Part shown: one piece after another, positions 1-22,636 of the stretch
How positions within the stretch are numbered: position 1 is the stretch's first letter
Layout of the letters: every line of letters begins with the position of its first letter
Source: Alphaproteobacteria bacterium
GTDB lineage: Bacteria; Pseudomonadota; Alphaproteobacteria; Ferrovibrionales; Ferrovibrionaceae
Length of the DNA: 64,000 nucleotides
Direction of reading: 5' to 3'
Assembly (NCBI GenBank): GCA_017307375.1
Contig: JAFKFH010000003.1
Span: 744,001-808,000 of the forward strand
Notes under the pieces: generated by a model
What the model saw: only the letters and a program-made list of their open reading frames with translations
Told to the model about the DNA's origin: nothing
Databases searched by the model: none
Position numbers and translations under genes: made by a program

Positions 1-96
1 CGCAAATGGGCGCGCGACTGGGACTCGGTCAGGTTCTGTTCCGAACGCTGCCGCAATGCCCGCGGCGCTGCCGCGACGCGATCGGGCAGCGCCTGA
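1..96 (+). CDS. DUF2256 family protein, 3' end only
   Basis: The window opens inside this gene. Reading from base 1 gives 31 codons ending in TGA at 94-96. The visible residues include KKWARDWD-like and FCSERC segments (seen: KWARDWDSVRFCSERC), which match the second half of the short cysteine-rich DUF2256 motif. Such proteins are small and probably bind a metal, but their function is unknown. The stop lies one base before the photolyase ATG at 98, so the two genes are almost certainly co-translated. DUF2256 genes are known to sit next to cryptochrome/photolyase genes, which supports both calls. The first half of the motif lies outside the window. Confidence 0.75.
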   Translation, partial: RKWARDWDSVRFCSERCRNARGAAATRSGSA

Positions 97-97
97 C

Positions 98-1630
98 ATG
101 GGTATGCTGCGTCTCGTTCTCGGCGACCAGTTGACGGCCGGGATGTCGTCGCTGGCCGACATCGATCCGGCCGCCGACGTCGTGCTGATGGTCGAGGTGA
201 CGGAGGAAGCGACCTACGTTGCCCACCACAAGCAGAAGATCGTCCTGGTGCTGTCGGCGATGCGCCACTTCGCCGACGAACTGCGCCGGCGCGGGATCAT
301 GGTCGACTATGTGGCGCTCGACGATCCCGCCAATACCGGCAGCTTCGACGGCGAGGTGGGGCGCGCCATCGCCCGTCACCGGCCGGCCGGTCTGATCGCG
401 ACGGAGCCGGGGGAGTGGCGGGTGCAACAGATGATGGCCGGCTGGGCCACCGCCTTCGGCCTGCCCGTCGACATCAGGACCGACGACCGGTTCTTTGCCA
501 GCCGTGACCGTTTCCGGTGCTGGGCGCAGGGGCGGCGCGGCTGGCGGATGGAACATTTCTATCGCGAGATGCGGCGCGAGCATGGCCTGCTGATGGACGG
601 GGACGAGCCGGTGGGCGGGCGCTGGAACTTCGATGCCGAGAATCGCAAACGGTTGCCGGCGGGCATGTTCCTGCCGCGCCGCCGACGCTTTCCGCCCGAT
701 ACCGTCACTGCCGCGGTCATCGCGCTGGTCGAGGATCGTTTTCCCAGCCGTTTCGGTACGACCGGGGATTTCGGCTGGCCGGTGACACGGGCCGACGCGC
801 TGGCGGCACTCGACGATTTTCTCGGCTCGGCCCTGGCGCGTTTCGGCGACTACCAGGACGCGATGGCCGCGGATTCGCCCTTCCTCTACCACTCGCTGCT
901 GGCGCCGGCGCTCAATCTCGGCCTGCTCGGGCCGCGCGAGGTCTGTCGCGCGGCCGAGGCTGCCTGGCGCGACGGCCGCGCACCCCTCAATGCGGTCGAG
1001 GGTTTCGTGCGGCAGATCCTCGGCTGGCGCGAATATGTGCGCGGCATCTACTGGACGCTGATGCCCGGCTATGCCGAGGTCAATGCGCTGGGGGCCGGCC
1101 GACCGTTGCCTGCGTTCTACTGGACCGGCGAAACCCGGATGCGCTGCCTGCGCGAGGCTGTCGCCACCACCCGGCGGCATGCCTATTCGCATCATATCCA
1201 GCGCCTGATGGTGACGGGAAACTTCGCCCTGCTCGCCGGCATCGCGCCCCGCGAGATCGAGCGCTGGTACCTCGCGGTCTATGCCGATGCCGTCGAATGG
1301 GTCGAGATGCCCAATACCCTCGGCATGGCAGTCTTCGCCGATGGCGGCCGCATGGCGTCGAAGCCCTATGCCGCGTCGGGCGCCTATATCGACCGCATGT
1401 CCGATTTCTGCGACGGCTGCGCCTATGACGTCCGGCAGAAATCGGGGCCGCGCGCCTGTCCGTTCAACTATCTCTACTGGGCCTTCCTGATCCGCAACCG
1501 GCCCGCGCTCGCCGGCAATGCCCGGCTGGCCATGCCCTACCGCACCCTCGACCGCTGGAGCGAGGCGGCGCGCCAGCGCTGCCTCGACGAAGCCGAGGCC
1601 TTCCTGGGCACGCTAGCCGGCGGGGACTAG
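98..1630 (+). CDS. phrB: Iron-sulfur bacterial cryptochrome / (6-4) photolyase-like protein
   Basis: This 510-residue protein belongs to the FeS-BCP class of the photolyase family, FAD enzymes that repair (6-4) photoproducts or act as photoreceptors in the cytosol. The N-terminal Rossmann-like part begins LRLVLGDQL and the C-terminal half carries the FAD-binding helical domain. Cysteines at residues 350, 438, 441 and 454 (in MRC, DFCDGC and RACPF) match in number and spacing the [4Fe-4S] ligands known from Agrobacterium PhrB when the ATG at 98 is used, which fixes the start. An in-frame upstream start at 56 would overlap the DUF2256 gene. Repair versus signalling cannot be told from sequence alone. 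Confidence 0.92.
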   Translation: MGMLRLVLGDQLTAGMSSLADIDPAADVVLMVEVTEEATYVAHHKQKIVLVLSAMRHFADELRRRGIMVDYVALDDPANTGSFDGEVGRAIARHRPAGLIATEPGEWRVQQMMAGWATAFGLPVDIRTDDRFFASRDRFRCWAQGRRGWRMEHFYREMRREHGLLMDGDEPVGGRWNFDAENRKRLPAGMFLPRRRRFPPDTVTAAVIALVEDRFPSRFGTTGDFGWPVTRADALAALDDFLGSALARFGDYQDAMAADSPFLYHSLLAPALNLGLLGPREVCRAAEAAWRDGRAPLNAVEGFVRQILGWREYVRGIYWTLMPGYAEVNALGAGRPLPAFYWTGETRMRCLREAVATTRRHAYSHHIQRLMVTGNFALLAGIAPREIERWYLAVYADAVEWVEMPNTLGMAVFADGGRMASKPYAASGAYIDRMSDFCDGCAYDVRQKSGPRACPFNYLYWAFLIRNRPALAGNARLAMPYRTLDRWSEAARQRCLDEAEAFLGTLAGGD

Positions 1631-1642
1631 GCCGGGTCTCGA

Positions 1643-2218
1643 TCAGGCACAGTCCGCATTGACCGGCGCGAGGCGGATGCGCAGCCGGTCGAGGGCGCGG
1701 CCGAAGACCATGCGATCGTCGACCGCCCGCGCCAGGACCAGTGCACCCTGGATGGCCAGGACGGCATCCTCGGCCAGATCGGCCGCGACGTCGGGCGGAT
1801 GGCCGCAGCGGGCCAGCGCGACGCTGAGCGCCGACGTCCATTCGGCGAAATAGCCCTGCACACGGGCGGCAAATCGGTCGCGTACCTCGCCCAAGGCGAA
1901 GACGCCGACAAGGCAGATGCGGCCGCCACCGTCGAAATACGCCGCCACCCCGTCGAGCATGGCGCCGATCGCGGCGACCGGATCGGGATCCCGGCGCAGC
2001 GGCCGGAAGATCGCCTCGGCGAACCAGCCGTCGATGTCGTCCAGCACCGCCGCCGCCATCTCGTCCTTGCCGCCGGGAAAGAAGTTGTAGAGGCTGCCCT
2101 TGCCCAGACCGGTCCCGGCGGTGATCAGCGCCAGGCTGGTCCCTTCGTAACCGTGCCGGCGGAAAATCTCCCCCAGCCGGCGCACGGCATCGCGGCGCTC
2201 CCGGATAAGCCGGGCCAT
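1643..2218 (-). CDS. TetR family transcriptional regulator
   Basis: A 191-residue repressor-type protein. The N-terminal helix-turn-helix includes GTGLGKGSLYNFFPGGKD near residues 35-53, the usual TetR pattern of recognition helix followed by a tyrosine/phenylalanine and a glycine turn. The remainder is the helical ligand-binding and dimerisation domain. Its ATG shares one base with the stop codon of the upstream NTF2-like gene (TGATG), so both are translated from one message. A perfect palindrome upstream of that partner gene (2724-2743) is the likely binding site, implying autoregulation. The ligand is unknown. Confidence 0.88.
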   Translation of the reverse strand: MARLIRERRDAVRRLGEIFRRHGYEGTSLALITAGTGLGKGSLYNFFPGGKDEMAAAVLDDIDGWFAEAIFRPLRRDPDPVAAIGAMLDGVAAYFDGGGRICLVGVFALGEVRDRFAARVQGYFAEWTSALSVALARCGHPPDVAADLAEDAVLAIQGALVLARAVDDRMVFGRALDRLRIRLAPVNADCA

Positions 2219-2688
2219 CAGAGGCCGAGGTCGCTCAGCCCCGGGTGATCGGACGGGCGTGGTCCCGGTGCCGGCCAGCGGAACAGACGCTGGTCTGGGC
2301 CGATGGCCACGTCGTTGATCGATGCCTCGCGCCGCCGCATCAGTCCGTCAGGATCGAATTCCCATTGTTCGTTGCCGTGGGACCTGAACCAGGCGCCGGT
2401 GTCGTCGTGCCATTCGTACTGGAAGCGGACCGCAATGCGGTTGTCGTGGAACGCCCAGAGTTCCTTGATCAGGCGGTAGTCGTGCTCACGCGTCCATTTA
2501 CGCTGCAGGAAGGCGACGATGGCGGGCCGGCCGGCGAAGAATTCCGACCGGTTCCGCCAGCGGCTTTCGGCGGTATAGGCGAGCGACACCTTGTCGGGGT
2601 CGCGCGAATTCCACGCATCTTCGGCCATCCGCACCTTCCGGGCAGCGCTTTCGACGGTGAACGGCGGCAGGGGCGGGCGCTGGCTCAT
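2218..2688 (-). CDS. NTF2-like / DUF1348 family protein
   Basis: A 156-residue SnoaL/NTF2-like alpha+beta barrel protein of the DUF1348 type. Typical segments are [17 protein letters not shown], near residue 20, and RFQYEWHD with GNEQWEFD in the second half. Function is unknown; members are small cytosolic proteins often placed next to TetR regulators. The open frame extends up to 2733, but that start would sit inside the operator palindrome and has no ribosome site, whereas the ATG at 2688 is preceded by AGGAA. It is the first gene of a two-gene operon with the TetR gene and is probably the regulator's target. Confidence 0.85.
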
Positions 2689-2723
2689 CGGTCGTTCCTG
2701 TCTGTCTGTATCATTCGGACGAT

Positions 2724-2743
2724 ATTGTACCAATCAGTACAAT
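2724..2743. promoter_or_regulatory. Palindromic operator for the TetR/NTF2-like operon
   Basis: A perfect inverted repeat: arms ATTGTAC and GTACAAT around a 6-base centre CAATCA. It lies 36 bases upstream of the NTF2-like start codon, where a repressor would cover the promoter. The GTACCAATC-like core resembles operators described for LmrA/YxaF-type TetR repressors. Binding by the adjacent TetR protein is inferred from position. Confidence 0.7.
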
Positions 2744-2762
2744 CTGCGGCAACCACCGGCTG

Positions 2763-2791
2763 TTGACCGCGCCCTGGAAACGGCCTAGAAC
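2763..2791 (+). promoter_or_regulatory. Candidate sigma-70-type promoter for the phage-type RNA polymerase gene
   Basis: TTGACC at 2763-2768 and TAGAAC at 2786-2791 are separated by 17 bases. The -35 is close to consensus and the -10 is weak. It sits about 95 bases upstream of the ATG at 2887, so the gene can be read by the host polymerase. Confidence 0.4.
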
Positions 2792-2886
2792 GCCATCGTT
2801 CCCGAATTGTTCTTAATTCTTCGCGCCAGCCGTCGGCCCGTGCCGGCGGTCGACTTGGCGCGTCCACGCCGTTGGAGGGCCAATCG

Positions 2887-5196
2887 ATGACCGATCTGAT
2901 CGCCTTGCAATCTGCCAGGGAAAACGCCGCGCACGCAGCGCGCCAGGCGGCGCGCTGCGCGCTTGTCGGCCCCTGCCTCGGCGCGGTAGCCGCTGCGCTG
3001 GGCCAGCTTCTGGCTGGGCTTGCCCGGGGTGGCGCCGGGCGCACGCATGTCTCGGTCGGCGCGTTGCGTGGCCTCGACCCGGTAGACCTTGCAGCCCTGG
3101 CACTCGCCGTCTGTGTCGACGGCGTCGCCAGGGCCGAGGCGCTGGCGCGCCTTGCCGAGCGCGCGGGCGAGCGGGTGGAGATGCTGAAGGCGGCCCGGTC
3201 GACCCGGTGGAGCCGGGCGCGTCGGGCCCGTATCGGTGCGACGCTCGTCAATGCCGTGCTGATCGGGGCGGGTGACGTCTTCGAATCGTACCGCGGTCAG
3301 GGCGAAACGCGGCTTGGCCTCACCGCCGGGGCGGCGGCGCGCTCGTCGACGGCCGGCATGACCGCCCCGCACGCGCCGATGGTGTCGCCGCCACGACCCT
3401 GGGCCGATTTCGATACCGGCGCCTATCTGACGGCGCCAGCCCGGCAGGGCATCACCCTGGTCCGGGTGCGCGATCCGGCACATCGCGCGTTGCTGCGCCA
3501 GGCATTGCGCGTCGAGCGTGCGCCGCGGCTGTTCGCCGCCGTCAACGCGATCCAGGCGGTTCCCTGGCGGATCAACCGCGACCTGCTGGCGCTGGTCGAG
3601 ACGGTGAGGACGAATGAGCTGGGCCTGCTTGCCCCGGCGCGCGTCGCGGTGCCGCCGCAGCCGGCCGCAGCGGACCGGGCAGGTCGGGCGGCGTGGCGGC
3701 GCGAGGCCGCCCGCGCCCACGACCACAACCGGATGGCCGACGTTCAGAACCTGATCGTGGCCCGCGACCTCGCCACGGCGCAGGGTCTCGTCGAGGCCGG
3801 CAACCGCTTCTGGGTGCCGCACAGCCTCGACTTCCGCGGGCGGGTCTATCCGATCCCCGGCTTCAACCCGCAGCGCGGCGACGCGGTGCGCGCGCTGTTC
3901 GAATTTGCCGACGGCGTTCCGCTGGGGGCCGCCGGGCTTTACTGGCTGGCGATCCATCTGGCCAATACCGGCGATTTCGGACGGATCGCCAAGGCAGCGT
4001 TCGACGAGCGGCTTGCCTGGGTCGAAGATCATCTCGACGAGATTGCCGGGGTCGCCGCCGATCCGGCCGGCACGATCGGCTGGTGGGCGGGGGCCGACGC
4101 GCCTTTCCAGTTCGTCCGTGCCTGCATCGAGCTGACCGCGGCATTGGCCGCACCGGATCCTGCGGCCTTCGTCTCGCACCTGCCGGTGGCGCTCGACGGT
4201 TCCAGCTCGGGCCTGCAGCATTATGCCGCGGCGCTGCGCGACGCCGAGGGGGCGGCACGCGTCAACCTGGTGCCGCTGCCGCGGCCGGCCGACATCTACC
4301 AGGACGTGGCCGACCGGCTGGCCTCGACCGTCGAGCGCGATGCGGCGGCCGGCGTGGCGGAAGCCGTGGAATGGCGCGATTTCGGCATCACCCGAAGCAC
4401 GGTCAAGCGCGCGGTGATGACCTCGGCCTATTCGGCCGAAGCCTTCGGCTTTCGCCGCCAGATCATGGCCGACACGATGCGGCCGCTGGAGGCGGCCGTC
4501 GTCACCGGCGCGCGCGGCCGCCATCCGTTTGCCGAGGGCGGCTGGCCGGCGGCAGGTTACCTCGCCGGCCTCCTCTGGCAGACCGTCGGCGAGGTTGCGG
4601 CCGGTGCGGGGGCGGGCATGGCGTTTTTCCGCCAGGTCGCCGGGCTGCTCGCCCGCGAAGGCCAGGGACTGACCTGGATCACCCCGCTCGGTCTGCCGGT
4701 GCGCCACCACTACCGCCGCTGGCGGCACGAGCGCATCGCGCTGCATTTCTTCGACCCGCGGCGGCAGGCGGCGCGGGCCGGGGACGTCACCGTCGGCGAC
4801 CGGATCCTTGCCCGGGTCACCGCGACGCTGCGGGCCAGGCCCACGCGCAATCTCGACCGTTCGCGCCAGCTTTCGGCGGTGGCGCCCAACGTCATCCATT
4901 CGCTGGACGCGAGCCACCTGATGCTGACCGTGCTGGCCGCAAGCGAGAGCGGAATTCGCGATTACGCGCTGATCCACGACAGTTTCGGCACCCATGCCGG
5001 CCATTGCAGCCGCTGGTCGGCGCTGATTCGACAGGCCTTCGTCGATCTCTACCTGGCATACGACCCTTGCGCCGCAATCCGCGAGGCGGCTTGGGCGGCG
5101 CTGCTGCCGGCCGGGCGCGATGCCCTGCCGCCCCTGCCCGAACGGGGCAGTCTCGATCTTGCCGCAGTCCTGGGTGCCGACTACGCCTTTGCCTGA
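2887..5196 (+). CDS. T7-like (phage/mitochondrial-type) single-subunit DNA-directed RNA polymerase
   Basis: A 769-residue single-subunit RNA polymerase, somewhat shorter than T7 RNAP (883). All catalytic landmarks are present: DFRGRVYP near 315-322, motif A LDGSSSGLQHY with Asp437, motif B TRSTVKRAVMTSAY with Arg503, Lys507 and Tyr515, and motif C LIHDSFG with His697-Asp698, equivalent to T7 D537, R627, K631, Y639, H811 and D812. The protein ends in DYAFA, matching the FAFA carboxyl foot of T7 RNAP. The ATG at 2887 is chosen over TTG 2872 because GGAGGG at 2874-2879 is spaced seven bases from it. Flanking genes are ordinary chromosomal genes, no phage gene is nearby, and codon use is as GC-rich as its neighbours. 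It should be an active polymerase; its promoters and role are unknown. Confidence 0.95.
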   Translation: MTDLIALQSARENAAHAARQAARCALVGPCLGAVAAALGQLLAGLARGGAGRTHVSVGALRGLDPVDLAALALAVCVDGVARAEALARLAERAGERVEMLKAARSTRWSRARRARIGATLVNAVLIGAGDVFESYRGQGETRLGLTAGAAARSSTAGMTAPHAPMVSPPRPWADFDTGAYLTAPARQGITLVRVRDPAHRALLRQALRVERAPRLFAAVNAIQAVPWRINRDLLALVETVRTNELGLLAPARVAVPPQPAAADRAGRAAWRREAARAHDHNRMADVQNLIVARDLATAQGLVEAGNRFWVPHSLDFRGRVYPIPGFNPQRGDAVRALFEFADGVPLGAAGLYWLAIHLANTGDFGRIAKAAFDERLAWVEDHLDEIAGVAADPAGTIGWWAGADAPFQFVRACIELTAALAAPDPAAFVSHLPVALDGSSSGLQHYAAALRDAEGAARVNLVPLPRPADIYQDVADRLASTVERDAAAGVAEAVEWRDFGITRSTVKRAVMTSAYSAEAFGFRRQIMADTMRPLEAAVVTGARGRHPFAEGGWPAAGYLAGLLWQTVGEVAAGAGAGMAFFRQVAGLLAREGQGLTWITPLGLPVRHHYRRWRHERIALHFFDPRRQAARAGDVTVGDRILARVTATLRARPTRNLDRSRQLSAVAPNVIHSLDASHLMLTVLAASESGIRDYALIHDSFGTHAGHCSRWSALIRQAFVDLYLAYDPCAAIREAAWAALLPAGRDALPPLPERGSLDLAAVLGADYAFA

Positions 5197-5206
5197 CCGA
5201 TCGATC

Positions 5207-5233
5207 TCGACACCCGGCAAGGCTTGCTATAAT
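5207..5233 (+). promoter_or_regulatory. Candidate promoter for the nucleotide-sugar dehydrogenase gene
   Basis: A perfect TATAAT lies at 5228-5233. The best -35 is TCGACA at 5207-5212 with a short 15-base spacer. It lies in the 78-base gap after the RNA polymerase gene, suggesting the two genes are transcribed separately. Confidence 0.45.
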
Positions 5234-5274
5234 GCCAGCCCTTTCCGGCGTGCGAGCCTTGATGGAGGCGGGAT

Positions 5275-6561
5275 TTGAGCGGTCAGTGGCGGATAGCGGT
5301 GATCGGGCTGGGTTATGTCGGGCTGCCGCTGGCGGTGGCGCTCAGCCGCCATTTCCAGGTGATCGGCTTCGACATCAGCGAGGGCCGCGTGGCCGAACTG
5401 GCGCGGGGCCATGATCGCACCCGCGAAGTCCCGGACGAGGTGCTGGCCGCCGCGCCGCTGCAGGTATCGAGCGGGCGTGAGGCGCTGCGCGGCGCCGACG
5501 TCTACATCATCACCGTCCCGACCCCGGTCGATGCCAGCAACCAGCCCGACCTCGGCGCCGTGCTGTCGGCCTGCGACACGGTCGGCGCGGTGCTTGGCCG
5601 TGGCGCGACCGTGGTGCTGGAAAGCACCGTATATCCCGGGGTGACCGAGGAGATCTGCGGGCCGCGCCTCGCGGCGGCCTCCGGCATGGTGGCCGGACGC
5701 GACTTCTTCCTCGGCTATTCGCCCGAGCGCATCAACCCGGGCGACCGCGAACACACGGTCGAGCGCATCACCAAGGTGGTGGCCGGGCAGACCGCGGAAA
5801 TCACCGAGCGCCTGGCCGAGATCTACGGCCGGGTCACGACCGGCGGCGTCTTCCGGGCCGCCTCGATCAAGACCGCCGAGGCGGCGAAGGTGATCGAGAA
5901 TGCCCAGCGCGACATCAACATCGCCTTCATCAACGAGGTGACGCAGATCTTCAACCGCCTGGGCCTGTCGATCTACGACGTGCTGGCGGCCAGCGCCACC
6001 AAGTGGAACTTCCTGAACTTCCGGCCAGGCCTGGTCGGCGGGCATTGCATCGGCGTCGATCCCTATTATCTCGCCGCCTGCGCCAACACGCTCGGCCATG
6101 GCGCCGAGGTGATCCTGTCCGGGCGGCGCATCAACGACGGCATGGGCGCCTTCGTCGCCGACCAGATCGCGGCCGAACTGGCGCCATGCCTGGCGCCGGG
6201 CCGGCCCGGCCGGGTGCTGATGCTGGGGCTGACCTTCAAGGAAAACGTGCCCGACCTGCGCAATACCAAGGTGATCGACCTGATCGAGCGGCTGCGCGGC
6301 CACGGCCTTCAGGTCGATGTCCACGACCCGCTGGCCGATCCGGCCGAGGCGCGCCACGAATACGGCCTGGACCTGCTGTCCGCGCTGGACGGGGTGCAAC
6401 CCTACGACGCGGTCGTCGGCGCGGTCGCCCACGATGCCTACCTGGCCTTCACGCCCGACGACGTCGCCCGGCTGCTGCGCGACGGCGGGCTGCTGGCCGA
6501 CGTCAAGAACCTGTGGCGCGGCCTGGCCCTGAGCGGGGACCGCCGGCGCTGGACGCTGTGA
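5275..6561 (+). CDS. UDP-N-acetyl-D-hexosamine 6-dehydrogenase (WecC/TviB/WbpO type)
   Basis: A 428-residue NAD-dependent enzyme that oxidises the C6 alcohol of a UDP-sugar to the uronic acid, for surface polysaccharide synthesis. The Rossmann motif GLGYVG is at residues 11-16, the central domain carries KTAEAAKVIEN near 199-209, and the catalytic cysteine is Cys258 in GGHCIGVDPYY. The C-terminal UDP-binding domain follows. Length and motifs fit the TviB/WecC branch better than UDP-glucose dehydrogenase, but the exact substrate is not decided. The start is a TTG at 5275: GGAGG at 5264-5268 is spaced six bases from it and no in-frame ATG is near. No glycosyltransferase genes lie nearby. Its last 59 bases overlap the convergent gene on the minus strand. 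Confidence 0.9.
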   Translation: MSGQWRIAVIGLGYVGLPLAVALSRHFQVIGFDISEGRVAELARGHDRTREVPDEVLAAAPLQVSSGREALRGADVYIITVPTPVDASNQPDLGAVLSACDTVGAVLGRGATVVLESTVYPGVTEEICGPRLAAASGMVAGRDFFLGYSPERINPGDREHTVERITKVVAGQTAEITERLAEIYGRVTTGGVFRAASIKTAEAAKVIENAQRDINIAFINEVTQIFNRLGLSIYDVLAASATKWNFLNFRPGLVGGHCIGVDPYYLAACANTLGHGAEVILSGRRINDGMGAFVADQIAAELAPCLAPGRPGRVLMLGLTFKENVPDLRNTKVIDLIERLRGHGLQVDVHDPLADPAEARHEYGLDLLSALDGVQPYDAVVGAVAHDAYLAFTPDDVARLLRDGGLLADVKNLWRGLALSGDRRRWTL

Positions 6562-7489
6562 CCAGCGCCTGACCGGCCAGCGATTCGGCCAGCGACTCGG
6601 GCGCCAACGCGGACAGACATTCGTTGACCGCCAGCAGGGCGGGGACCAGCGCCTCGCGATGGCGGTCGCGGTCGTTGCGCGCTTCGGCGCGATAGCGCCG
6701 ACAGGCGGCCAGCGCGGCCTCGCGCCCCGCCGCCGGATCGGTCGCCACGACCTGTCCCGAGGCGGCCAGCGGGGCCGCCAGCGCGGCAAACACTGCCGGG
6801 TCCAGCGCGGCGACATCCAATGCCGTCTCGCTCGGCCGGAAGCGTCTGGACTGGGTCAGGGCCAGCATGTAGTTCGCGGTCGGTTCGACCCGCACCTTGC
6901 CGCCCGGCGTCGCGACGATCAGCGGGCAGTAGGGCGCCAGCGCCGGCAGCACATGGTTGGGCAGCACCCGGGCACGCCAGTAGCTGGTGGCCAGCCGCGC
7001 GTAGTGGGCGAAATCCTCGATCGCGCGGAAATCGGCCGCGGCCAGCGGCTTGATCTCGACCTTCGGCTTTTCGGGCACCACCGTGTCGTTGGCGACGTCG
7101 ACGTAGAGCGTCCCGAACAGCATCGCATTCTGGAAATAGGTGCCGCGCAGGTCGCCCCAGACCATGCGCGCATCCCCGCCGTGATGCAGGAACGCCAGCA
7201 GTGCGGCATGGCCGGCCGCCGCCTCGCGCGGCAGACTGGCCGGGTCGAACGCCGCCAGCTGCCGTTGCGCCGCAACGGTGATCTCCAGGCATTGGCCGAG
7301 CGGATAGGGCCGGCCCTGCTTGACCGGCTGCCGCGCCGGCAGGACCTGGTCGAGGCCGGCGCGCAGGTTCAGGAAGAACGCTTCCAGCGCCGGCAATGCC
7401 GGCATCAGGAAGCGTTCGGTCAGGGCCTGCTGCCGGGCACGATCGGCGACCCGCGGCTCGTTGGGCAGCAGGCGGCGGCTGGACGTCAA
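6503..7489 (-). CDS. Unknown protein encoded downstream of fumC
   Basis: A 328-residue protein I do not recognise. It has no signal peptide or membrane segment; its composition is that of a soluble, helix-rich, alanine- and arginine-rich protein, with a better-defined centre around [19 protein letters not shown]. The start is a TTG whose TGA overlaps the fumC stop (TTGA at 7489-7486), so translation is probably coupled to fumarase. The 3' end overlaps the convergent dehydrogenase gene by 59 bases, and the last residues (rich in Gly, Ser, Arg) come from that overlap. An internal ATG about 28 codons in ([11 protein letters not shown]) is an alternative start. Confidence 0.65.
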
Positions 7490-8880
7490 TTCGCCTCCAA
7501 CTGCGGGGTCAGCATCGTCCGGGGATCGACCAGCCGGTCGAATTCGTCGCCATCCAGCAGGCCCATCACCATGCAGGCTTCCCGCAGCGTCAGGTCGTGC
7601 TCGAAGGCGTGGTGGGCGACCTTGGCGGCGTTGTCATAGCCGATTCGCGGGCTCAGCGCCGTCACCAGCATCAGCGAGCGACCGACATAGCTTTCGATCT
7701 GGCGCAGGTTGGCGGTCATGCCGGCGACGCAGTGATGCTCGAAGTTGCGCGCGCCGTCGGCCAGCAGGCGGATCGACTGCATGACGTTGTGGATCATCAG
7801 CGGCTTGTAGACGTTCATCTCGAGATAGCCGCCCGCGCCGCCCATGCCGACGGCGACGTCGTTGGCCATCACCTGCATCGCCAGCATGGCCAGCGCCTCG
7901 CATTGCGTCGGATTGACCTTGCCCGGCATGATCGACGAGCCCGGCTCGTTGGCCGGCAGACTGAGTTCGTTGAGGCCGCAGCGCGGGCCCGAAGCGAGCA
8001 GGCGGATGTCGTTGGCGATCTTCAGCAGCGACGTGGCCGTGGTGCGCAGCGCGCCGGACAGCATCACCAGGCCGTCATGGGATCCCATCGCGGCGAACTT
8101 GTTGGGGGCGGTGACGAAGGGCAGGCCGGTGCGCCGGGCGATCGCCTCGGCGATTCGCACCGCGAATTCCGGATGGGTGTTGATCCCGGTGCCGACCGCG
8201 GTTCCGCCGATGGCGAGCTTGAGCACGTCGCCCAGCGCATGCTGAAGCCGTGCCTCGTTCTCGGCCAGCATCTCGGTCCAGCCCGAGACTTCCTGGCCCA
8301 GGGTCATCGGGACGGCATCCTGCATGTGGGTGCGGCCGATCTTGATGACGTCCTTCCACTCCTCGGCCTTGGCGGCAAAGGCCTGGCGCAACTGCCCGAT
8401 CGCCGGCAGCAGCCGGGCGCGCACCGCGATGGCGGCGGCCATGCCCATCACGGCGGGAAAGCTGTCGTTCGACGATTGCGACATGTTGACGTCGTCGTTC
8501 GGATGGATCGGCTTCTTCGAGCCGAGCACGCCGCCCGCCAGCTCGATGGCGCGGTTGGCGATCACCTCGTTGACGTTCATGTTCGACTGGGTGCCCGATC
8601 CGGTCATCCAGACATGCAGCGGGAAATGCCCGTCGAGCTTGCCGTCGGCCACTTCCTCGGCGGCGCGCACGATCAGGTCGCGCTTTTCCGCCGACAGCAG
8701 CCCCAGGTCATGGTTGACCTCGGCCGCGGCGGCCTTCAACTGGCCATAGGCGTGGATCACCTCGATCGGGATCAGTTCGATCCCGATCGAGAAATGCTCG
8801 ATCGAGCGTTGGGTCTGGGCGCCCCAGTAGCGGTCGGCAGGCACCTCGACGGGGCCCATCGAATCGGTCTCGACGCGCAT
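7486..8880 (-). CDS. fumC: Class II fumarate hydratase
   Basis: Fumarase C, 464 residues, converts fumarate to malate in the TCA cycle; a cytosolic homotetramer that is iron-independent. The family signature [11 protein letters not shown] is present in the C-terminal half, together with [12 protein letters not shown] and [12 protein letters not shown]. The start at 8880 gives the standard N-terminus [14 protein letters not shown], preceded by GAGGAGA; upstream in-frame codons are not family-like. The following unknown gene overlaps its stop codon. Confidence 0.97.
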
Positions 8881-9032
8881 CGGTCTCTCCTCGGACTGGA
8901 AAAGGTAAGGGTTGAGCCTGGCGGGCGGGCTGGGTCGTTGCCCGGTCAGGCTACCTCGCCTCACGTCCGATGGAAACGTGGGATGTCTTGGGGGCGAGAC
9001 ATGCTCGGCCCGGCGCGGTCGCATCGGGCCGA

Positions 9033-9064
9033 AACGACTGCGGCGGACCCTGGGGTCCGCCGCA
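9033..9064 (-). terminator. Candidate terminator of rpmB
   Basis: A perfect inverted repeat, TGCGGCGGACCC at 9039-9050 and its complement at 9053-9064, lies 22 bases after the rpmB stop. On the minus strand it is followed by a short TTT, so the U-tract is weak. Confidence 0.55.
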
Positions 9065-9086
9065 ATTCAGCAAAGGCGCGTGAGGA

Positions 9087-9380
9087 TCAGGCGGCCGAGC
9101 CGGCCCGGGCCTTCTTGATCGCGCGCTTGAACTTGATCGCCTCGTCCGACAGCTTGTCGTTGGCGGTCTTCACCAGCCAGTTGTCGATCCCGCCGTTGTG
9201 CTCGACCGAGCGCAGGCCGTGGGCCGACATCTTCAGCGTGATGTGGCGGCCGAGCGCATCGCTCTGCAGCGACACGTCACGGACGTTCGGCAGCCAGCGG
9301 CGGCGGGTCTTGTTGTTGGCGTGGCTGACGTTGTTGCCGCTCTGCACACCCTTGCCGGTCACTTCGCAACGACGGGCCAT
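9087..9380 (-). CDS. rpmB: 50S ribosomal protein L28
   Basis: L28 of the large ribosomal subunit, 97 residues. It starts [24 protein letters not shown]-like (first 14 residues [14 protein letters not shown]), the family's N-terminal signature, followed by the basic segment TRRRWLPN. Length matches alphaproteobacterial L28. It is monocistronic between meaB and fumC, with AGGA in front of the ATG, its own terminator, and a possible structured leader at 9400-9452. Confidence 0.98.
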
Positions 9381-9458
9381 GGCAAATCCTCGTAAATCTC
9401 GGGTCTCAGGACGATTTGTCCGGGAAGTGCGGCTATTTACCGACGAGACCCGGCGGCG

Positions 9459-10460
9459 TCAAGCTGATTCAGCCGGTCGGCCGAGAAACGCCGCGATCAG
9501 CCTGGCGGCGCCGGCCGCGGGCGTCAGCCGCCCGTCGCGCACCGCCTGCTGCACCGCTGGCCAGCCCGCCGCAACCTCGGGGTGGCGACGCGCGGCCTCG
9601 ACCAGGCCGTCGGCCAGTTCCCGGTCCAGCCAGGCCAGCCCCTGGGCCGCCCGGCGCGCGGCCAGCTCGCCTGTCGGTTCCAGCGCGGCCCGGTAGGCCG
9701 CGATCGTCTCGCGGATGCCGGCGATGCCGTCGCCGGTCATGGCCGAGGCGAGCAGCACCGGCGGTCTCCAGGCAGGCGACCGCGGCCGCATCAGCGACAA
9801 GGCGGCCTGATAGTCGGCCTGGGCGAGCTTTGCCGGCCTCAGCAGGTCGCCATCGGCCTTGTTGACGACGACGATGTCGGCCAGTTCCATGATGCCGCGC
9901 TTGATGCCCTGCAGGTCGTCGCCCCCGCCGGGGGCCAGCAGCAGCAGGAACAGGTCGACCATGTCGGCCACGGTGGTCTCCGACTGGCCGACCCCGACGG
10001 TCTCGACCAGCACCATGTCGAAGCCCGCGGCCTCGACCAGCGACACGGCCTCGCGCGTGCGGCGGGCGACCCCGCCCAGCGTGCCCGACGATGGCGACGG
10101 GCGGATGAAAGCATTGGGATCGCGCGACAATTCGGTCATGCGCGTCTTGTCGCCGAGGATCGAGCCGCCGCCGCGCGCCGAGCTGGGATCGACCGCCAGC
10201 ACCGCGACCTTGTGGCCGCGCCCGGTCAGATGGCGGCCGAAGGCTTCGATGAACGTCGACTTGCCGACGCCGGGTGTGCCGGAAATGCCGATCCGGGTCG
10301 AAACCAGGCCTGCGGGGGCAACGCGGGCGAGCAGGTCGGCGGCCATTGCCCGGTGGTCGGGCCGGGTCGATTCGACGAGGGTGATGGCGCGGGCGAGGGC
10401 CCGGCGGTCACCCTGGACGAGGCGGTCGCCGAGCGCGGGCAGGTCGGACGGGTCGATCAT
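9459..10460 (-). CDS. meaB: Methylmalonyl-CoA mutase-associated GTPase MeaB (ArgK family)
   Basis: A 333-residue G3E-type GTPase that protects and reloads adenosylcobalamin-dependent methylmalonyl-CoA mutase. The P-loop GTPGVGKST is at residues 61-69, the Mg-binding DPSS motif follows, and the base-recognition motif VNKAD lies near 198-202. [10 protein letters not shown] is the characteristic switch segment. The mutase itself is not in this window, so the gene is separated from its partner. Family members were once annotated as ArgK kinases; that label is not supported. Confidence 0.95.
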
Positions 10461-10545
10461 GGCGGCGCGCAGGAGACCTCAATCGTTCGTGACGCGCAAG
10501 CCGCCATGCTTGACGGCGGCAGGTTTGCACCCAAAATGAACGGAT

Positions 10546-11367
10546 ATGCGCAAGATAGCGATGCTGTTGGCCGGGCTGCTGGCCACCGCCCCGGTCCTGA
10601 CGGCCCGGGCGGAGGGCGAGACCCACCGTCTGCGCTTTTCGTTCGATTTCTATTCCGGCGGCGCCCAGCTGATGACGGTCGACACCCAGGCGGTGCGCCA
10701 GGGCGAAGCCTATCGCGGTGAAAGCACCGCCCGCTCGACCGGCGTCTTCGATTTCCTGATGCGCCTGCGTTCGCTCAATACCGTCGAAGGCATGATCGAC
10801 GGCGGGGTGGTGATGCCGCGCCGCTTCGTCACCGATGCCGACTGGCGGTTCTCCAAGCGCCGGGTCGACATCACCTGGAACGAGCGGCGCGAGGCGATAT
10901 CGGTCGCCGATCCGCCGCCCGAGGCCGACGACCGCGACCCGGTCGAGCCGGCCCAGACGGTCGGCGCGCTGGATCCGCTCAGCGCCGCACTGGCCCAGGT
11001 TCTCTATACCGCCGACAAGCCCTGCGAGACGCGCGTGCCGATCTTCGACGGACGGCGGCGCTACGATCTCGTGATGACGCTGGACGGCGAGGACACCTTC
11101 ACGCCCACCGACTACACGTCGTTTACCGGCAAAGCGCTGCGCTGCGCCATCCGGGTCGAACGCATCGCCGGCTATGCGCGTTCGGCCGAGGAACAGAACC
11201 GCGAGATGGACCAGCGCAAGACCATGCTGTGGGTGGCGCGCTACCCCGACCAGCGGCTGCTGGTGCCGGTGCGGCTGGTCGCCGACAGCTTCTTTGGCTC
11301 GGTGATCGGCCATCTGACCTTCGCCGAGATCGACGGCCAAGTCCGCACCCCCCGCAAGAAGGGCTGA
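10546..11367 (+). CDS. DUF3108 family exported protein
   Basis: A 273-residue protein with an N-terminal signal peptide (MRKIAMLLAGLLATAP, cleavage likely after the TARA segment near residue 22). The mature part matches the DUF3108 type: a predicted beta-rich periplasmic protein beginning RLRFSFDFYSGGAQL and containing two cysteines (Cys in KPCETR and LRCAIR) that could form a disulfide. Function is unknown. It is transcribed away from meaB and ends six bases before the convergent MAPEG gene. Confidence 0.85.
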   Translation: MRKIAMLLAGLLATAPVLTARAEGETHRLRFSFDFYSGGAQLMTVDTQAVRQGEAYRGESTARSTGVFDFLMRLRSLNTVEGMIDGGVVMPRRFVTDADWRFSKRRVDITWNERREAISVADPPPEADDRDPVEPAQTVGALDPLSAALAQVLYTADKPCETRVPIFDGRRRYDLVMTLDGEDTFTPTDYTSFTGKALRCAIRVERIAGYARSAEEQNREMDQRKTMLWVARYPDQRLLVPVRLVADSFFGSVIGHLTFAEIDGQVRTPRKKG

Positions 11368-11373
11368 CGCCCC

Positions 11374-11781
11374 TCAGATCTGGACGCGGAAATGCGCGGC
11401 GATGGCCAAGGCGGCCGATACGAACAGCAGGCCCATCGTCAGTACCATGCCGATCATCCGGCCAGGCGAGCCGCCGCCCGAGCGGGCAAGGCCCCAGCCA
11501 TGCAGGACCCGGGCAAGCACCAGCCCGCCGCCCAGCAGGTGAATGATCAGCTGGCGCGTCAGCAGCGCCTCGCACAGGCCGATCAGCAGCAGGATCAGCG
11601 GCACGTATTCGGCGAAGTTCGCATGGGCGCGGATCGCTAAGTTGAGCGGCTCCTGCCCGCCATCGCCCAGGTCGACCTTCAGCGTGAAGCGATAGCGGAT
11701 GACGTTGATCGTCAGAACGAGATAGATCAGCCCGAGAATGCCGCCATAGAGGGCGGTCGTGGCAACCGGCGCGATCGTCAT
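11374..11781 (-). CDS. MAPEG family membrane protein
   Basis: A 135-residue integral membrane protein of the MAPEG superfamily (membrane-associated proteins in eicosanoid and glutathione metabolism), like E. coli YecN. About four hydrophobic helices are visible: residues 9-29, 55-75, 78-96 and 109-130, with the typical polar segment RAHANFAEYVPLILLLIG between the first and second. Family enzymes conjugate or reduce substrates with glutathione; the substrate here is unknown. The long open frame continues upstream to 12633, but that part is antisense to the esterase gene; the ATG at 11781 begins the family-like sequence. Confidence 0.88.
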   Translation of the reverse strand: MTIAPVATTALYGGILGLIYLVLTINVIRYRFTLKVDLGDGGQEPLNLAIRAHANFAEYVPLILLLIGLCEALLTRQLIIHLLGGGLVLARVLHGWGLARSGGGSPGRMIGMVLTMGLLFVSAALAIAAHFRVQI

Positions 11782-11820
11782 GCATAAATCCCAGCAGGAA
11801 GCGGTAAAATCGGAGGCAGT

Positions 11821-12735
11821 ATGGGCAGACAGCTTGTGGGCGTCAATGTGCTGGCCCTGGGGCTCGCGATGCTGGCATCGCTGGCCACGGCAGCCGAGCG
11901 GCAGACCCTCGAGTGGCAGGACTTGCCCCGCAGCTTCGCCATCGTCCGGCCGGACAATGGCGGCAAGCCGCAGGACCTCGTCGTCGTGCTGCATGGCGCG
12001 GGCGGCAATGGCGAGGCGGCGCTGACCCGCCAAGGCTGGGCGGAACTGGCGCCGATCGCCGGTTTTATCGCCGTCGCGCCGGATGCCCTGCCGCCCGATA
12101 TCGCCCGCCCGCCCGGCTTCCGCGACAACCCCCGCTACTGGAACGACGGGGGCGAACGAACTTCGCCGGCCAAGGCCTGGGTCGACGATGTCGGCTTCCT
12201 CGACCGGTTGATCGCGGCGATAAAGGCGCAGTCGCCGGTCGACCGGGTGTTCATGACCGGCTTCTCTTCGGGCGCGGCGATGACAATCCGCTTTGCCGCC
12301 GCCCGCCCCGGGCTGCTGACCGCGGTGGCGGCGATCGCCGGACATCCCAGTCCGCTGCCTGCGCTGCCCGACCGGCTGCCCAGCCTGCTCTATGCCACGG
12401 GAACGCGCGATCCGCTGAACCCGATCGCCGGCGGCGAGGTCCGCATCGCCGTCTGGTCGGCACGCTTCACCAAGGTCGCCCCGATCACGGTGCCCGAAGG
12501 CTGGGCCCGCGCGCTGGCCTGCGCCGGATCGACCGATACCCGGCCGGGCGAGGATCTGCGGCTGATCGCCTGGCAGGACTGCCGCGGCGGCGCGCAGGTC
12601 CGCTATTACGAACTTGTCGGGCTCGGCCACCACTGGCCGGGCGCCGGGGCGGAATTGCCCGAGTCGATGGCCGGGCCGGTCGTGCCCGCGATCGACGGTC
12701 TCGAGCTGGTCTGGTCATTCTTCAACGCCCGATAG
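11821..12735 (+). CDS. Secreted alpha/beta hydrolase of the PHB depolymerase / feruloyl esterase (LpqC) type
   Basis: A 304-residue exported esterase. Residues 1-24 form a signal peptide ending LASLATAA. The alpha/beta hydrolase core has an oxyanion-hole segment VVLHGAGGNG (55-64), the nucleophile elbow GFSSG with Ser149, a likely acid Asp196 in TRDPLNP, and a catalytic His in GLGHHWPG near 269. Members cleave short-chain polyhydroxyalkanoate or aromatic esters outside the cytoplasm. It is divergent from the MAPEG gene with 39 bases between the start codons. Substrate is not decided. Confidence 0.88.
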   Translation: MGRQLVGVNVLALGLAMLASLATAAERQTLEWQDLPRSFAIVRPDNGGKPQDLVVVLHGAGGNGEAALTRQGWAELAPIAGFIAVAPDALPPDIARPPGFRDNPRYWNDGGERTSPAKAWVDDVGFLDRLIAAIKAQSPVDRVFMTGFSSGAAMTIRFAAARPGLLTAVAAIAGHPSPLPALPDRLPSLLYATGTRDPLNPIAGGEVRIAVWSARFTKVAPITVPEGWARALACAGSTDTRPGEDLRLIAWQDCRGGAQVRYYELVGLGHHWPGAGAELPESMAGPVVPAIDGLELVWSFFNAR

Positions 12736-13469: not shown

Positions 13470-13979
13470 ATGGGCGGAATACACTGGGTTTCGCGCGGCC
13501 TGCGCCTCGTTCACCTCGCCGGTCTGGCAGGGGCCGCCGGCGCGCTGCCGGCCCTGATCGCGATCGGTGCCGGGGATCATCCGGGCCTGGCCGTCCGCCT
13601 CGTGCAGGATGTCATGCTACCTGGCCTTGGTCTGGCCGTGGCAAGCGGCATGGCGCTGACCTGGGTCCGGCGTCTGGATCCCAGACGGCATCGCTGGGTC
13701 GTGCTGCATGCAGCGCTGGCCTTCGTGGTCGTCGGCCTCGCGGCCGGGCTGGTCGCGCCGGCCTTGTACCTGATGGCGACCCTGGCAGAGATCCATGGCG
13801 GCGACATGGACATGCCGGCCTATGCCGCCCTGGCCGACCGGGCATGGGTGGGCTCGGGTCTCGGCTTGGCGGTGATTCTGTGCCTGATCGCCGTCGCCAT
13901 CGTCAAATGGCCGGGCCTGCCCCGCGATGCGGCTGCGGCGCCGCGGACTTCGACATCGCCTCGCGGGAGGGCGTCATGA
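13470..13979 (+). CDS. Integral membrane protein, four-helix (DUF2269-like)
   Basis: A 169-residue membrane protein translationally coupled to the ABM gene. Four hydrophobic segments are visible: about residues 15-34, 44-62, 73-100 and 128-147, with a conserved-looking RLVHLAGLAG at the first and a polar loop EIHGGDMDMP before the last. It resembles DUF2269-type proteins of unknown function. The C-terminus is a polar Ala/Arg/Ser tail. It is the second gene of the predicted MarR-regulated pair. Codons upstream of 13470 in the same frame are antisense or overlapping sequence and are excluded. Confidence 0.7.
   Translation: MGGIHWVSRGLRLVHLAGLAGAAGALPALIAIGAGDHPGLAVRLVQDVMLPGLGLAVASGMALTWVRRLDPRRHRWVVLHAALAFVVVGLAAGLVAPALYLMATLAEIHGGDMDMPAYAALADRAWVGSGLGLAVILCLIAVAIVKWPGLPRDAAAAPRTSTSPRGRAS

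Positions 13980-22560: not shown

Positions 22561-22636
<76 letters not shown>

Follow-up and report, generated by a model that had tools for sequence, protein, structure and literature searches.

A phage-type RNA polymerase gene alone among the host genes of an alphaproteobacterium and its sister at the head of an SU10-like virion-gene block

The DNA analysed here, called the window throughout, is a stretch of 64,000 nucleotides from an Alphaproteobacteria bacterium of the family Ferrovibrionaceae (assembly GCA_017307375.1, contig JAFKFH010000003.1, hereafter C16, positions 744001-808000), whose genome comprises 7.54 Mb in 41 contigs. Near its left end lies a gene for a single-subunit, T7-like RNA polymerase (ssRNAP), the features of which are collected in Table 1. 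The encoded protein matched the Pfam family RNA_pol (PF00940) with 324.9 bits against a cut-off of 22 and phrog_414 of PHROGs with 568.8 bits, and it is 31% identical to T7 RNA polymerase. In a four-sequence alignment, D437, R503, K507, Y515 and H697-D698 were identical to their T7 counterparts; the catalytic Asp pair, the Arg/Lys/Tyr of the O helix and the His of motif C, which mark membership of the ssRNAPs, are thus all present, and the end of the protein, DYAFA, corresponds to DFAFA of T7. The same genome holds a second PF00940 gene (contig C38, 462067-464598, minus strand), whose product of 843 amino acids is 57% identical to the window protein and is called the sister below.

An earlier sequence-only reading of this DNA had described a full-length ssRNAP with every catalytic residue. 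The catalytic residues and the DYAFA foot were borne out, but the protein is not full-length. Compared with the sister, about 41 residues of the N-terminal domain (32 + 9) are gone, at about residues 147-196 of T7, and the N-terminal promoter-binding domain is therefore incomplete. In T7, the N-terminal part that is missing here refolds and joins the RNA exit channel. RPOL_N matched the window protein at 267-332 of 334 only, and the full-length sister at 272-331 only, so this match is uninformative when taken alone. The mean identity of the two copies over 40-residue stretches is 57%, and the lowest stretches (27.5-30%) are found at the amino end of the protein. The specificity-loop residues 622-661 share 37.5% identity with the sister, versus 65% for residues 345-620 and 60% for residues 662-769. 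An AlphaFold model of the window protein, made with one relative, reached a mean pLDDT of 32 and was unusable. Because the whole catalytic core is retained, the window enzyme is most likely still able to polymerise RNA. With a shortened N-terminal domain and a diverged promoter-reading loop, the enzyme, we infer, either uses a different promoter or has none remaining in this genome, and it would be at most an orphan regulator.

The window gene lies among host genes. The right flank carries genes for a UDP-sugar dehydrogenase, fumarase C, ribosomal protein L28 and MeaB, while the left flank, followed to 12.9 kb, carries acyl-CoA dehydrogenase, CoA-ligase, SnoaL-like, gluconolactonase, short-chain dehydrogenase, periplasmic-binding, DCC1-like and photolyase-related genes, with all nine of the nine left-flank proteins falling into enzyme, SnoaL-like, redox or transport families. 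Among the ten neighbours at window positions 56-12732, nine have Pfam families (enzymes, a TetR regulator, ribosomal L28 and DUFs, or domains of unknown function) and the gene at 6503-7489 has none; PHROGs matched two of the ten, UDP-glucose dehydrogenase and fumarase, both host-type enzyme families. The search for phage genes came up empty over 12.9 kb to the left of the polymerase and 58.8 kb to its right, and a panel of 47 phage proteins gave no match at E 1e-5 in 74 kb (10 kb to the left plus the window); to the right of about 12.7 kb this panel, which is not exhaustive, is the sole test for phage genes. The replication or virion genes that stand beside the polymerase in an Autographiviridae-type prophage were not found at this locus. 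Chromosomal flanks without a prophage, as first read from the letters, were thus confirmed, with the left side now checked to 12.9 kb by Pfam families and the phage panel. The divergent NTF2 gene is present in 11 relatives, and TetR adjoins it in ten of them; the polymerase and the sugar dehydrogenase are absent nearby in all 11 (11-20 kb read).

We also considered that an assembly chimera or contamination had put a phage gene among host genes. Nothing positive speaks for this beyond the genome being a draft of 41 contigs, while contig C16 is 878,576 bases long, the contamination estimate is 2.07%, and the GC content at third codon positions (GC3) of the polymerase gene (0.844) fits the host range (0.837-0.940), so we regard this explanation as extremely unlikely. 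Codon use had been described as like that of the neighbours, which holds for GC3 but not for the codon score: at 0.36 it lies under those of all 17 host genes compared (0.401-0.628), the same 17 genes that defined the scale.

The sister heads a same-strand gene block of about 20.5 kb with SU10-like virion genes. This block contains a small gene and genes for a putative metallopeptidase, tail collar, structural, tail and ejection proteins, TerL, portal, scaffold, capsid and adaptor, with Pfam matches to the SU10-like portal (E 8e-143), the SU10-like major capsid (1.6e-82) and the SU10 adaptor. Further products of the block are a methyltransferase, a long repetitive protein that matched no family and, judged by eye, a possible holin. 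The portal is about 26% identical to the 15 phage entries listed for it. The block occupies 444157-464921, between tRNA-Cys (444083-444156) and pcm (from 464922). Because tRNA-Cys and pcm are neighbours in nine of nine relatives fetched (of 17), at a distance of 154-297 bp versus 20,765 bp here, the block is an insertion, and with its virion genes it is an inserted phage element. Virion genes and a clean insertion site, as expected of a prophage, are present; an integrase and a replication module were not recognised. No integrase, replication or endolysin family was found among the 18 reading frames scanned, a three-sequence phage primase-helicase profile matched other contigs of the genome only (38.8-48.6 bits), and a search for a direct repeat at the two ends of the block found none. 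The block may be a phage remnant, a satellite or a particle producer.

Gene transfer agents are likewise blocks of virion genes without recognised replication genes. Unlike them, the C38 element is inserted, has its own ssRNAP and is absent at its site in all nine relatives fetched; a stable vertical locus is not what was found, and the identification of the block as a gene transfer agent is weakened, particles aside. In IMG/VR, relatives of the C38 capsid gene were found at 23 loci. Two of these, L020 (3300006450_000014) and L021 (3300024038_000007), are short metagenome contigs with the same virion block, their portals being 99% and 56% identical, respectively. With the sister enzyme as query, no ssRNAP was found in L020 and L021 (6.2 and 8.2 kb), and none was found in the other 21 loci (3.9-20.9 kb each). 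For TerL, portal, scaffold and capsid compared with L020, the ratio of nonsynonymous to synonymous polymorphism (pN/pS) was 0.19 (19 nonsynonymous and 34 synonymous differences), with 0.09 for TerL and 0.43 for the portal; there is a 2-base indel in the L020 portal.

On the coding strand of the C38 element, the 28-bp repeat ACGCTAAAAGCCACA[G/T]GTTAGCCGGAAC occurs in two copies that are identical at 27 of 28 positions. One stands before the polymerase gene (39 nt from the 20-base core to the ATG) and the other before the tail/virion operon (16 nt). With up to 3 mismatches allowed, the genome has no further match to the 20-base core, and the reversed pattern, used as control, gave 3 chance matches. 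We read the 28-bp element as a putative T7-style pair of cognate promoters of the sister polymerase, which would then most likely act as a self-amplifying switch, with one promoter before its own gene and the second before the virion operon. The core also holds a short inverted repeat (GCTAA...TTAGC) and may instead be a repressor operator. Repeats of a similar promoter-like kind were seen in two prophages of other genomes, AATCCACGACTGCCAACCTA at five places in the G228 prophage, one of which has a mismatch, and TTAGGTTCCCCTNTAGRCC at four in the G325 prophage. Phage LUZ100, according to passages of a published study, has eight phage-specific promoters that share a 17-bp motif, and one of the eight precedes the polymerase gene (PMC10134795).

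The window copy gave a different result. The C38 motif had 0 matches in the 64-kb window at up to 3 mismatches, and a BLAST search of positions 2734-2900 against the genome returned the query itself and 39 weak fragments, the best with E 0.024. A likeness of the upstream region to the C38 motif, seen by eye, was discarded: its local alignment score of 6 was equalled in 282 of 320 genomic stretches and 271 of 300 shuffles. The earlier suggestion that the enzyme transcribes an unknown gene set found no support, as neither a promoter nor a target for it emerged. These results also bear on the idea that the window polymerase acts in trans on the two promoters of the C38 element, as a host-kept switch for its virion genes. 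Both polymerases belong to the same lineage and lie in the same genome, the element has two promoter-like sites, and its four virion genes are under purifying selection relative to L020. However, identity in the specificity loop falls well below the mean over 40-residue stretches, the C38-type site is absent from the window, and the element has its own polymerase; we consider a switch in trans improbable.

To place the two copies, a maximum-likelihood tree of 24 phage and prophage enzymes, with no eukaryotic rows, was computed. The window and C38 copies paired with support of 100/100 and were joined at 100/97 by the enzymes of L019, an IMG/VR viral contig, and of the G228 prophage; seven forks of the tree were open. 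The window branch has a length of 0.54 versus 0.41 for the sister. The phage relatives of the window protein that were listed are 32-37% identical to it; in genome contigs one fragment at 34% identity was obtained, and no close relative was found in viral contigs. The G228 prophage carries an integrase, ssb, endonuclease, primase-helicase and DNA polymerase (named from reading frames), and its virion genes are homologous to those of the C38 block (TerL 61%, major capsid protein 47%, portal 45%). At G228:C1, about 390-425 kb (L041/L042/L015), a T7-like polymerase, SU10-like virion genes and repeated promoter-like sites stand in one prophage, in which the capsid match is split by about 80 codons inside one open frame. 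From the pairing in the tree and the homology of the G228 prophage to the C38 block, the likely source is a temperate phage lineage that combines a T7-like polymerase with an SU10-like particle, and this lineage would have given rise to both the window gene and the C38 element. Synonymous sites between the two copies are saturated (46.1% of codons differ at identical residues, 47.2% expected). Given this and their 57% identity, the copies are old relative to each other; the window gene is not a recent copy of the element's polymerase, and separate arrivals or an old duplication are possible histories.

PF00940 was absent from all 17 other family genomes (10 of them at least 90% complete), and an order-level search returned the same 18 genomes. 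The long residence once proposed for the gene found no support in this result or in the 11 relatives that have the NTF2 gene without the polymerase nearby, and the resident sister phage element is a plain source. More widely, PF00940 exceeded the cut-off in 4 of 385 genomes of a draw from the class and in 6 of 398 of a draw from the phylum, this genome being in both, which leaves eight other genomes (3 and 5, respectively). Judged by the panel of 47 phage proteins, five of these eight (G228, G325, G570, G632 and G742) have phage replication genes beside the PF00940 gene. G465 showed an ssb-like match only, in 36 kb, and two could not be judged: G295 (15 kb read, where about 2.2 kb separate the gene from the end of the contig) and G532 (a 3-kb contig). 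On the 4.6-Mb replicon of Shinella sp. PSBB067 (L011:11314-14184), an ssRNAP has an integrase match only within 25.6 kb; its similarity to the sister breaks off at 13563, beyond which the frame continues for about 200 codons without the usual end. We do not claim the window gene as the only orphan known.

We favour, with somewhat better than even confidence, the reading that the window gene is a phage-derived ssRNAP stranded alone in the chromosome and of the same phage lineage as the C38 element. Judged from sequence, its phage origin is put forward with high confidence, while on present function we stand near even.

The sequence-only reading had also remarked that the palm resembles mitochondrial enzymes, which we compared by pairwise scores only. 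Residues 345-520 of the window protein scored 125.6 bits against the human mitochondrial polymerase, 118.2 against the yeast enzyme and 98.7 against T7; the same segment of the sister scored 138.5, 134.9 and 124.7 bits, respectively, whereas three control phage enzymes reached 92-103 bits against the mitochondrial enzymes and 124-191 against T7. Part of the T7 shortfall probably comes from an insertion in T7, as the alignment with T7 reaches no further than residue 147 of the segment. For the protein as a whole, the scores against the human and yeast mitochondrial enzymes were ordinary (window 266/229, sister 274/249, phage BB8 269/284), and residues 521-769 favoured T7 (94-95 versus 56 bits). 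The resemblance is thus real for residues 345-520, but the whole protein is no closer than the phage BB8 enzyme, and the homologous catalytic domain with its raised segment score does not make the window gene a mitochondrial relative. That the window gene is a long-standing gene of the chromosome, close to where the mitochondrial RNA polymerase originated, as the segment score in both copies might suggest, is very unlikely: besides the whole-protein and carboxyl-terminal scores, it was found in only 1 of 18 family genomes and the family in 4 of 385 class-draw genomes, and it pairs with a phage-element gene, albeit in a tree without eukaryotic rows.

Whether the window gene is still alive was approached through its conserved columns and its open frame. 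In a 24-sequence set of the window copy, the sister and 22 other enzymes, the window copy departs at 9 and the sister at 10 of the 78 columns shared by at least 90% of the 22 others, which themselves, scored leave-one-out, depart at 0 to 16. At the 26 columns invariant in the 22 enzymes, the window copy departs twice, at D471 (Gly, its own change) and at V783 (Ile, in the sister too). In neutral-drift simulations of a gene of the same length, none of 60 runs was free of stops at 75% identity and all 60 had at least 2 stops; 1 of 60 was stop-free at 78% and 3 of 60 at 85%. Because simulated drift left stops, the frame and core of the window gene have probably been under selection for most of its branch, perhaps while it still belonged to a phage.

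The strongest rival sees in the window gene a relic in decay that has already lost its activity or its use while its frame is still unbroken. The loss of about 41 N-terminal residues, the change of Asp471 to Gly, the lowest codon score among the genes compared, the lack of a promoter or target in our searches and the absence of PF00940 from 17 other family genomes all fit such a relic. On the other side stand the retained catalytic residues, conserved columns kept as well as in the sister, a good ribosome-binding site, a branch of 0.54 against 0.41 for the sister, and a frame without a stop where every simulated run at 75% identity had at least two. We give the relic a chance a little short of even.

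Several points weigh against the favoured reading of a stranded polymerase from the phage lineage of the C38 element. The window copy has Gly in place of T7 D471, a residue that the sister retains and that does not vary among the other 22 enzymes. The motif, BLAST and local-alignment searches found no promoter or target for the window copy, and no promoter-like repeat was found in L019 in the 13.3 kb searched. The G228 enzyme sits on a long branch and both copies were flagged for their unusual make-up, which leaves the pair more certain than the wider clade. The 75% of the drift simulation is an estimate for the window branch, and the stop-free frame may date from the time inside a phage. The ratio of nonsynonymous to synonymous substitution rates (dN/dS) between the two copies was set aside as untrustworthy, the synonymous sites being saturated, and the genus is represented by one genome in the comparison.

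In another alternative, the window gene encodes a working, host-kept T7-type enzyme without the subdomain H region and so without the usual T7 elongation switch; it would transcribe host genes from an unrecognised promoter class, or block phage promoters abortively and thereby restrain incoming relatives of the resident element. We think this unlikely. The domesticated polymerase of the sequence-only reading is possible, though the searches found no target for it.

Table 1 Features of the window polymerase gene and the candidate promoters of its sister (window positions unless a contig is named)
Feature	Position	Strand	Basis
Single-subunit (T7-like) RNA polymerase (ssRNAP) gene, 769 aa	2887..5196	+	ATG 2887 to stop at 5196; Pfam, PHROGs, alignment
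Ribosome-binding site GGAGGG, 7 nt before ATG	2874..2879	+	read from sequence
Residues 100-105, between two gaps (32 + 9 residues) of N-terminal loss relative to sister; T7 subdomain H region	3184..3201	+	alignment
Motif A Asp437 (T7 D537)	4195..4197	+	alignment
Motif B / O helix, Arg503, Lys507, Tyr515 (T7 R627, K631, Y639)	4393..4431	+	alignment
Specificity-loop region, residues 622-661	4750..4869	+	identity to sister copy
Motif C His697-Asp698 (T7 H811-D812)	4975..4980	+	alignment
Carboxyl foot YAFA	5182..5193	+	alignment
Upstream region, without sister-element promoter-like motif and without convincing repeat elsewhere in genome	2734..2886	+	motif and BLAST searches
Candidate ssRNAP promoter cores, two copies	C38:460985-461004 and 464638-464657	-	repeat search

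Three further features of the window were recorded. A perfect inverted repeat (TTGTAC-CAATCA-GTACAA, 2725-2742) lies upstream of the NTF2-TetR pair, overlaps a promoter-like site and is, by eye, a probable TetR operator. TATAAT at 5228-5233, between the polymerase stop and the UDP-sugar dehydrogenase gene and absent from the promoter scan list, is by eye a possible promoter of the latter gene's own. A tRNA-Ala gene (ggc, 22561-22636, minus strand) is the sole tRNA gene found in the window, and its surroundings were checked by the phage panel only.

Compared with known systems, the window enzyme is like T7 RNA polymerase and the Autographiviridae enzymes (PF00940, phrog_414) in its catalytic core residues and YAFA foot, and differs from them in its shortened N-terminal domain and in that no phage genes were found around it and no cognate promoter was found for it. 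The SU10-like podovirus structural module (SU10_portal, SU10_MCP, SU10_adaptor) is present behind the sister polymerase, in an element with no recognised integrase or replication family. As far as passages of one paper describe them, temperate T7-like phages and prophages (the Pseudomonas putida KT2440 prophage, LUZ100, Pelagibacter HTVC019P and Pasto) also place an ssRNAP in a bacterial chromosome, and a phage-specific promoter precedes its gene, an arrangement that the C38 element seems to share (PMC10134795). Such prophages carry integrase and replication genes; no genes of these kinds stand beside the window gene, and those recognised in the C38 element are of virion type only. The same passages report T7-like prophage elements in 78 Pseudomonas genomes (PMC10134795), and a figure legend elsewhere already lists a single-subunit enzyme of a bacterium (PMC3961267). 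Among the matches listed in a search of open-licence papers, neither an orphan ssRNAP in a bacterial chromosome nor an ssRNAP-headed SU10-like block appears in titles or abstract openings. Chromosomal T7-like polymerases in prophages are already known (PMC10134795); what is new is an isolated copy in combination with a sister that heads a block of virion genes.

If the repeated site in the C38 element is indeed the promoter of the polymerase there, enzyme and site together appear to make up a new orthogonal transcription pair, one that comes from a GC-rich bacterium. Mitochondria use a phage-type RNA polymerase, and to our knowledge, from a search that was not exhaustive, no bacterium is known to use one for itself. 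With one ssRNAP heading a phage block that has its own promoter-like pair and one alone among host genes, this genome offers a natural test of cellular takeover.

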